Positions 7,121-9,506 of a stretch of 64,000 nt of DNA are shown one piece after another. The stretch is taken from NCBI RefSeq assembly GCF_904067545.1, contig NZ_LR881183.1, positions 1,616,277 through 1,680,276 of the forward strand, written 5' to 3'. The DNA comes from Thermococcus camini (GTDB lineage: Archaea; Methanobacteriota_B; Thermococci; Thermococcales; Thermococcaceae). Under the pieces are notes generated by a model. The model made no database searches. It worked only from the letters and a program-made list of their open reading frames with translations, and was not told the origin of the DNA. The position numbers and the translations under genes were made by a program. Every line of letters starts with the position of its first letter. The stretch's first letter is position 1.

Positions 7121-7451
7121 CATCATCACCCTCTCAGTTTTTGTCTCCGAAGTATAAAAGGATTAGGCGTTTTAAATCCTTGCGTGTATTCGTTTTGCAT
7201 CAACTTCCATGGAGACCCCTGGCACTGACCTCCTCCCCGCCCTAAAGGCCGAGGCTTGTGAAAAGAGAAAAGTCAATGAGCATTGTTAGCCTGAGAGTTT
7301 TAAGAACCCCACGTAGGGTGCTGTATAAAATTGTATGTGGTTCGCCATAATATAACTTGGTTTTGACCATGATTTCACTTTTAGTGATAGAAAGGGTTAA
7401 ATAGTCCAACGGCATATTTTGTAATGCAATCTCCTATTGGAGGTGCAGGTC
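7121..7451 (+). other. Intergenic region with promoters and a repeat relic
   Basis: This 330-base stretch holds the minus-strand Nop5 promoter (near 7150), a dispersed hairpin-containing repeat (7207-7262), and a short open frame (7278-7352, starting MSIVSLRVL) with no recognisable product. An AT-rich segment follows (7340-7425), then the Shine-Dalgarno GGAGGTG at 7439-7445 for the next gene. A GGGTTAAATAG element near 7388-7398 is the best promoter candidate for the peptidase gene. No RNA gene was recognised. Confidence 0.4.
7207..7262 (+). repeat. Dispersed hairpin-containing repeat, copy A
   Basis: About 55 bases starting CCATGG and containing CCTCCCCGCCCTAAAGG followed by CCGAGGCT. It aligns with copy B at 14960-15016, which also starts CCATGG and contains CCCGCCCTGAAGGGCGAGG. 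The core folds as a short stem (GCCC/GGGC type) with a loop of A-rich bases. Similar CCCGCCCTRAAGG-GCGAGGCT hairpins are remembered near IS200/IS605 (tnpB) element ends in Thermococcales, so a decayed element end is a reasonable reading. That origin is inference; no transposase is present. Confidence 0.4.
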
Positions 7452-8628
7452 ATGAACTGGAAGGCCCCTGTAGTGTTACTCATTGGACTTTTCTTGTTAG
7501 GGGGGGGTCGTGACGGCGGCCCCGGTTGACAAGCCGGGGGCAGTGCCCTTAGCCACAGTTAAAGCACTGGCAGTCAGGGAACTTCACAAGTTCCCGGAAT
7601 TCAACGGGGCAATCCCAACCAGCCCAACACCCCTATACTTCCCCGACGGCAGGTTGGCAGCTTACGAATTCAGAATGGTCAAGAATGGAAAAACCATTGG
7701 TTACATCATAGTATCAGCCAACAGGAATTTGCCACCGGCAATTCTCGAAGCAGGCTTTGGAGAGAAGACTCCAAGCGACCTGATGAAAGAACTCGCGGTG
7801 AAGAAAGGCGTTAAGAACTACCGCCTCGCATACTTCAGCGGATTGAACTACGGCATCTTAGCCGGAGACAAGGTTGTGGACATGAAAGGCAAAGAATACA
7901 GAAAACCAGAAAAATATGTCTTGCAGACTGGAGCATATGCAAGTTCTTGGGACACTGCTGGACAGTATACGATTCAAGCTGCCACTTTGGTAGATCAGAA
8001 GGTGTTATGGAACATACCCAGATGGACAGAAAGTGACCCCTCTGGAGGATCTTGGGCTGGTTATGATTATATTGGGCCTAATGCCGATCCTTGGGACAAA
8101 TGGGATGGTTGTGCTCCAATTGCAGCATCAATGGTAATTGGCTACTATGAGACTCAGTACCAGACAGACTGGTATAAAGAGGCTGTTATAGACATTTTGC
8201 ATTACTTAATGGGAACCAGTGCCAGCGGCTGGACTCCCACTTCTAACATAGGGCCAGGAATTGAGAGATTTTATGACAGGGCTCTATATCTGTACAATGA
8301 AGGAGTATTATCTGATCCTCCTCATTACAAATATACGACCAGCACAATTGACAATCCCAGCAACTCACTGCTATTCACATATGTACAGCTGGAGATTAAA
8401 AGCAAAAGACCACTACTCCTAACAGCTAGTGCAGCGTGGGGCATAGGGTTTGAATGGTCTGGGTCGCTCCATACAACCACAGTAGTTGGCTATAGTGTAT
8501 ACGACAATGGTGAAAAATACTTATACATTCACACAACTTACGATGACCCATACTCAGCATGGGTACTTCTAGATAGCATCGGCAGCGTCAGAACACTTAC
8601 AATGATTAACCCAGTAAAAGTCTCATGA
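7452..8628 (+). CDS. Secreted C39-like cysteine peptidase, signal peptide out of frame at a G8 tract
   Basis: The ATG at 7452 has an ideal Shine-Dalgarno (GGAGGTG, 7439-7445) and opens a signal peptide (MNWKAPVVLLIGLFLLGG), but this frame stops soon after the eight-G run at 7500-7507. The rest of the protein is in the +1 frame, openly readable from a GTG at 7510 to 8628. With seven Gs the two join as ...LLGGVVTAAPVDKPG, a perfect signal-peptidase junction. The mature part has a propeptide-like region (about residues 30-150) and a papain/C39-like domain: Cys in WDGCAPIAASM, His in LHTTTVVGY, Asp in TYDDPYSAW. As written it is frameshifted: a phase-variable tract, early decay or a sequencing error. 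The substrate is unknown. The next gene is 11 bases downstream. Confidence 0.75.
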
Positions 8629-8639
8629 GGTGATTAGAA

Positions 8640-9506
8640 GTGGACAAAAATGTAAGGATTATAGTTCTCGTTTTCTCTTTTATTTTGGTTCTCGCGCTGG
8701 GTTACTACATATCCGGGAACCAGCTACCAAGTCAGGACTCCAGCGACGGAGTGGACTACTCCACCGTAACCTGCACGCTCGAGACGGAGCCCCAGTTCAC
8801 CCACGCAAACGCCTGGACCGGCTGGAGTATCAGGGAGCTCTTAGACAACCGCATGGTGGAGTTCACCGACTTCTTAGAGTTCGTCCCAAAAGTATCGCTG
8901 AGTGAAGGAAAGAGCAGCGGTTACCTGCACGCGGAGGACTGGCCGGCCGAGATGGAGTTAAGGCCGAAGTGCGTATTGGCTGGAAGTGCAGTCTTCTTCG
9001 AGAACAACGACACCGCGAGGGGAATGTACTACCCGGTAGTTGCCGGAAACAGGGGGGCGATAAAAAGGCAAGACATTGAACTACCCGCGGGGAACGTTTA
9101 CTTCGCCCACTACGCGATACCTGTGAAGAACGCCACCTGGGAGGTAACGGAGAACCTCGCGAACTCGAACGGGACTGACTTCCTGATGAGCGGCGGCATC
9201 TCGGAGAGAAGAAGAACAACGCTCACCGGGGCCTGCACCTGCCCCGTTGAAGCGGTAATTGCCCAGCTCGACGAGGCAATAAAGGCGAAGGGATTTGAAG
9301 AAGTCGCCCTGGAGGAAAACCCCGCCGAGAACGAGTATTTCAATCCGCTCAGTATCAAACTCTACCGCAGAGGCGACGAATACCTCTACGTGGAATTCGC
9401 CAAAGTCAATGGCATGGATCTGGTGAGAGTCCTCATGATAATGGGCGACGAGGAAGTCGTGAAAGCCTACGCGAAAGCCTTCACCGCGGGAAGCGTCGAA
9501 GGCTAA
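8640..9506 (+). CDS. Membrane-anchored/secreted hypothetical protein
   Basis: Encodes 288 residues from a GTG start with GAGGTGAT upstream. The N-terminus is a signal anchor (IIVLVFSFILVLALGYYISG), then an extracytoplasmic region with several Cys residues (VTCTLE, KCVLAG, ACTCPVEAV) that could pair in disulfides. No known domain was recognised. It follows the C39-like peptidase by 11 bases, so cotranscription is likely and a role as partner, substrate or inhibitor is possible but unproven. It has higher GC than the 3' half of the peptidase gene. Confidence 0.65.
   Translation: MDKNVRIIVLVFSFILVLALGYYISGNQLPSQDSSDGVDYSTVTCTLETEPQFTHANAWTGWSIRELLDNRMVEFTDFLEFVPKVSLSEGKSSGYLHAEDWPAEMELRPKCVLAGSAVFFENNDTARGMYYPVVAGNRGAIKRQDIELPAGNVYFAHYAIPVKNATWEVTENLANSNGTDFLMSGGISERRRTTLTGACTCPVEAVIAQLDEAIKAKGFEEVALEENPAENEYFNPLSIKLYRRGDEYLYVEFAKVNGMDLVRVLMIMGDEEVVKAYAKAFTAGSVEG

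Follow-up and report, generated by a model that had tools for sequence, protein, structure and literature searches.

Contingency loci and the closest described systems

Most descriptions of simple-sequence contingency loci come from host-associated bacteria. In pilC of Neisseria and in similar loci, a poly-G run in the signal peptide or the 5' part of the coding sequence acts as a contingency switch. A locus in Thermococcus camini shares with the Neisseria pilC type a G-run within signal-peptide codons, a predicted +1/−1 switching of an exported protein, and an intact body in the OFF state. Unlike the pilC type, it is archaeal, its run is of 8 to 9 nucleotides only, and its length variation is known between species. 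For contingency loci of this kind in Thermococcales, no report was found in the open-licence literature searched.

Three further systems invite comparison. According to the available portion of PMC11551767, mycobacterial homopolymer phase variation occurs under NucS-type repair that is blind to small indels, a feature that Thermococcus may share; in contrast to the mycobacterial homopolymers described there, the Thermococcus tracts are concentrated at the signal peptides of exported proteins. The VARTIG system of Thermococcales, as presented in the accessible part of PMC8416519, resembles the present locus in its exported protein with constant N-terminal and variable C-terminal parts, its interspecies exchange and its downstream membrane proteins. 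It differs in that the present system consists of a papain-like peptidase in a two-gene cassette; the words peptidase, papain and C39 are absent from the main text of PMC8416519. None of the 12 family members has an Ig-domain Pfam match at E ≤0.1, the published VARTIG module having been found by more sensitive methods. Finally, staphopain/streptopain-type proteases likewise combine a signal peptide, a pro-domain and a papain-like domain, with a weak structural match between the pro-domains, but the present protein has no sequence relative among solved structures and its catalytic half is modelled at low confidence.

The locus in Thermococcus camini

The window, i.e. the whole stretch of 64,000 nucleotides that was analysed, contains the following features, all on the + strand.

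7373..7389, +, TGM-like palindrome TATCAC-N5-GTGATA with 1 mismatch, a predicted TrmBL1/TGR site upstream of the promoter
7390..7403, +, BRE/TATA-like element GAAAGGGTTAAATA, predicted promoter (from sequence and the equivalent position in relatives)
7439..7445, +, Shine-Dalgarno GGAGGTG (sequence)
7452..7529, +, signal-peptide ORF as sequenced, 25 aa, the OFF product (stop TGA 7527-7529)
7500..7507, +, G8 tract, +1 relative to the in-frame length in relatives (sequence, shuffles, relatives)
7510..7908, +, conserved, pro-domain-like N-terminal domain, residues 1-133 (identity, dN/dS, model)
7909..8628, +, variable papain-like (C39-like) catalytic half (Pfam, alignment, conserved residues)
8110-8112, +, Cys201, invariant in 12 homologues
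8470-8472, +, His321, invariant in 12 homologues
8640..9506, +, partner gene downstream of the peptidase, 288 aa, with an N-terminal hydrophobic segment
9363..9487, +, 3' end of the partner gene, conserved in relatives and bounding the exchangeable segment on its far side

The ATG at 7452-7454 opens a signal peptide, and its frame, translated as MNWKAPVVLLIGLFLLGGGRDGGPG, ends at TGA 7527-7529. In the frame next to that of the ATG, the peptidase body runs open from GTG 7510 to 8628 (372 aa). Removal of one G joins signal peptide and body as ..FLLGGVVTAAPVDKP.., and the relative G011a is built in exactly this way. Thus, the initial annotation was right in starting a signal peptide at ATG 7452 behind a Shine-Dalgarno, in having the G8 shift the body into the next frame, and in expecting seven Gs to fuse the two parts. 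The tract is the sole G8 run of the 64-kb window, against 6.3 expected from shuffles, and only five such runs occur in the whole 2.02 Mb genome, so G8 runs are avoided. When the window was scanned for frameshifts by a Viterbi method, dozens of false jumps appeared, and the result was discarded.

We lean, if only slightly, towards reading the peptidase locus as a slipped-strand contingency locus caught in its OFF state.

The tract in relatives of the peptidase gene

The family comparison covered 14 copies with a readable tract in 11 genomes, one genome being taken per species. Neither of the two results that would have spoken against the initial annotation was found: instead of seven Gs in all relatives, the G-run ranges from 3 to 9 in length, and the upstream signal peptide is kept. 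Ten copies are in frame (ON): G011a and G062 read TTA+G7, G067 reads TTA+G6 followed by A, G077 and G004 read TTG+G7 (a run of 8), and G068 and G012 have a run of 6. In the remaining three, G026 and both G024 copies, the run is interrupted by A, thus a long G-run is not kept everywhere. The OFF copies comprise the window copy (TTA+G8), two copies in G084 (TTG+G8, nine consecutive Gs), whose bodies are open over 405 and 388 aa, and G011b, in which the run is of 5 and the body has lost 939 bp. A fifteenth copy, in G008, retains an OFF G9 signal peptide, the body being gone.

The 54 nt before the tract, from CAGGTC through TTA, are identical in the window and in G011a, which has G7 and is in frame. 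Gly-Gly is written GGGGGG in 8 of 12 family members, as against 2 of 116 in window genes. Despite unlike catalytic halves, the two G084 copies share their 5' segment (94.6% over 560 bp), which suggests that an OFF tract may spread by gene conversion. A homopolymer in the 5' coding part sets the frame, and homologous alleles with intact bodies include both in-frame and out-of-frame ones, in comparisons between species only. Besides the window copy, OFF alleles whose bodies stay open were found in a second species of the peptidase family (the two G084 copies) and in three unrelated exported families.

The peptidase and its exchangeable cassette

The C39-like identity given by the initial annotation is confirmed by a match to Peptidase_C39_2 (PF13529) at 24.5 bits, just above the cut-off of 24; 10 of 12 homologues match as well, and profile match and conserved Cys and His are both present. 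The N-terminal domain shows 83-95% identity among the copies of the co-variation set (G004 and G077 left out) and a dN/dS of 0.05-0.10 between the window copy and relatives with measurable dS. Its single-sequence model has mostly pLDDT 65-91 and is weakly matched by YpmB (Z 7.0) and prostaphopain B residues 48-193 (Z 4.8). Past residue 131 the model is poor, and the catalytic half is of low confidence. A Pfam search with the N-terminal domain alone gave no match, a profile search against solved structures no relative (best E 0.34), Foldseek with the single-sequence model nothing at E 0.001, and a scan of named genomes no relative. The product is probably an exported protease of papain-like type that carries an inhibitory pro-domain and is paired with a membrane-anchored partner. 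Judging from its sequence, the OFF gene is maintained rather than decaying.

About 7908-9363 is replaced between species and both edges are conserved, as is also seen at L093-L098 and L182-L187. The identity of the catalytic half is correlated with that of the variable part of the partner (Mantel r 0.95, p 0.0001, n=10 copies), and the catalytic halves of G084a and G011a, from different species, are 16 nucleotide changes apart. Catalytic half and partner co-vary as exchangeable cassettes in a manner that resembles effector/immunity pairs, and the two gene products would be paired. The layout of polymorphic toxins is present, with a constant N-terminal part, a swapped C-terminal part and a cognate downstream gene. 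Furthermore, the partner gene persists where the peptidase body is deleted (L094 in G011b and L165 in G008); these two orphans are suggestive of a protective partner.

A wider reading, possible but doubtful, is that Thermococcus switches a number of exported proteins at random through poly-G runs in their signal peptides, and that the run here would drive a polymorphic effector-immunity cassette, in a phase-variable archaeal warfare or self-recognition system operating without MutL. The protease catalytic half would be swapped between species together with a matching membrane partner, and the partner would be retained where the protease is switched off or has been deleted.

Upstream signals

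The TGM consensus was taken from the accessible text of PMC4706686. Within the 220 nt upstream, 13 of 15 family copies have a best match with ≤2 mismatches, compared with 14 of 5000 random window stretches. In the window and in most relatives, the palindrome precedes the TATA box; in G068 the best match sits elsewhere than in the other copies. As described in that part of PMC4706686, TrmBL1 bound upstream is an activator under gluconeogenic growth. Given a TGM-like site and a frame-setting tract, the peptidase gene may be under double control, answering to both sugar supply and tract length.

Poly-G runs elsewhere in Thermococcus

The genus survey covered runs of G≥8 in fetched stretches of Thermococcus genomes, not every G8 of the 61 genomes. 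By codon scores, 187 distinct runs were divided into 56 in-frame, 14 same-strand shifts, 8 strand changes and 109 edge or non-coding cases; the same-strand shifts were judged by eye to be 8 true breaks and 6 gene boundaries (L072 being uncertain). The signal-peptide count leaves out runs less than 150-160 nt from a locus end, repeated 25-nt contexts, runs with a best frame score ≤0.10, and starts failing a Shine-Dalgarno/charge/hydropathy filter. The focal copy of G004 (ON) and the G008 relic (OFF) are consequently outside the 11 signal-peptide runs, and G084b and, on our reading, the G082 CARDB/TSP3 copy are outside the 7 broken ones (repeated contexts).

With p-values that overstate independence, as homologues and gene conversion link the counted runs, the frame is broken in 7 of 11 signal-peptide runs of G≥8 versus 8 of 64 mid-gene runs (p=0.0007), and signal peptides hold 11 of 187 runs of G≥8 versus 15 of 1382 runs of G5-6 (p=8e-5), or 8 of 184 versus 14 of 1381 with the focal family removed (p=0.002). 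Tracts of G≥8 are thus over-represented in the signal peptides of exported proteins. At G7 inside signal peptides no frame is broken (0/4), and three OFF calls were made at G5-6, G011b among them, two of which look spurious. Every OFF allele at G≥8 is +1, in part because the search took only runs of at least 8.

The broken signal-peptide runs belong to four families: the C39-like peptidase, an LTD-domain family of large proteins with a Lamin Tail Domain match below the Pfam cut-off, a CARDB/TSP3 family, and one DUF4350-like protein, also matched below the Pfam cut-off. In the LTD-domain family, G000 is ON at G8 and G077 at G7, and G066 is OFF at G8 and G078 at G9; the alleles of G077 and G066 are similar. 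In the CARDB/TSP3 family, G004 is ON at G8, and G029, G082 and G027 are OFF at G8. The DUF4350-like protein of G020 is OFF at G8. Two of the three other exported families, LTD and CARDB/TSP3, therefore have both ON and OFF members. The OFF bodies measure 372, 405, 388, about 1300 (two), 845-850 (two) and 334 aa. Among the LTD and CARDB/TSP3 copies, some lack a long tract and are nevertheless out of frame (G070, G027b and G073; G014 with G5).

G-runs also occur in leaders. A near-identical leader, CAAAACCCCGTT followed by G8/G9 and CGAT(G), abuts the start codons of mostly exported proteins at L032, L066, L067, L158, L170 and L222 (G000, G024, G017, G007, G009 and G084, respectively), the run being 8 or 9 and differing between species. 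Runs of G12 and G13 lie ahead of starts in G010 (L154) and G006 (L136). From their position directly before start codons, such G-runs of 8 or longer may themselves be the apparent Shine-Dalgarno of other exported proteins. An Rfam search of six loci with G-run leaders returned one unrelated tRNA only.

Alternative explanations

The initial annotation likened the locus to a phase-variable one, with programmed slippage, decay or sequencing error as alternatives. Between-species variation in length and frame and the intact bodies support the phase-variable reading in part; against it, mid-gene runs of G≥8 break too, three peptidase copies have a run interrupted by A, the three close CARDB/TSP3 copies are uniformly OFF at G8, and some copies of other families are out of frame though they lack a long tract. 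An error of consensus or assembly, by which the true tract would be G7 and the gene ON, is unlikely yet stays a real rival, as one-base errors at G≥8 would mimic breaks and ordinary genes break there as well. To the mid-gene breaks counted above, ordinary genes included, comes one weaker case; named by eye, the broken genes comprise a permease and TauE/SafE-like, amylase-like, ABC ATPase, aldehyde:ferredoxin oxidoreductase-like, CbiM-like and uracil-DNA glycosylase-like genes, and each break may be an error or a real mutation. The sole other G8 frame break seen in the window genome, a +1 break in a glycosyltransferase-like gene (L030, G000:C1:201608-201615), has 18 intact close relatives, and those whose tract region was inspected lack the run. 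However, errors should show no preference for signal peptides, G9 is read in both chromosomal G084 copies, and some OFF alleles have other lengths (G011b G5, G029b G7, G014 G5). Moreover, about 44.7 kb of window ORF aligned to 8 syntenic loci holds no further, uncompensated frame break: all indels of a non-multiple of 3 are paired within about 20 nt, as summed by eye. As a side observation, the mid-gene G8/G9 breaks lie at L228 (G084), L224 (G083), L242 and L282 (G021), L243 (G027), L135 (G006), L166 (G008) and L070 (G036), in genes that by eye resemble permeases, DNA repair, transport and metabolic enzymes.

One-way decay, in which a recent frameshift at a mutable run killed the gene and more damage is to come, seems quite improbable. 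It would suit G011b, where frame and most of the body are lost, G008, which has lost its body, and the out-of-frame copies of other families that lack a long tract (G070, G027b, G073), but the OFF bodies are otherwise open, from 334 to about 1300 aa, the dN/dS of the window N-terminal domain is low, and the break recurs at the same tract in several species. We give hardly more credence, if as much, to programmed slippage, by which RNA polymerase or ribosome would slip on the G-run so that part of the product is exported at any length, or a restart at GTG 7510 would yield a cytoplasmic form. That GTG is close downstream of the tract, and each of the CARDB/TSP3 copies L363-L365, which come from different species, is OFF at G8 and retains its body. 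Yet many peptidase homologues are plainly in frame, three of them with an interrupted run, and with 10 of 14 readable copies in frame no shift is conserved, which argues against this explanation; the OFF genes of G020 and G066 have no start codon immediately after the tract.

Proposed mechanism and significance

If the locus is a contingency locus, the G-run in the signal-peptide codons would gain or lose one G during replication. In-frame lengths would give an exported pro-peptidase, and the present +1 length a 25-aa peptide and no exported enzyme. Slippage at this tract would be reversible and take place at a high rate. MutL (PF01119) was detected in none of 61 genomes, the control search being positive in 11 of 14. 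As reported in the accessible part of PMC11551767, mycobacterial NucS leaves 1-2 nt indels unrepaired, which is tied to phase variation there. By analogy, Thermococcus NucS would act on small indels as its mycobacterial counterpart does, and slips would persist, since MutL is undetected in the genus and indels of 1-2 nt are skipped by NucS-type repair. The peptidase would be one among several exported Thermococcus families with poly-G at the signal peptide.

If genus-wide in free-living hyperthermophilic archaea, such switching would mean that slipped tracts can serve bet-hedging independently of hosts and of immune evasion, and it would also offer a readable test in organisms that rely on NucS rather than MutSL, some of which are genetically tractable.
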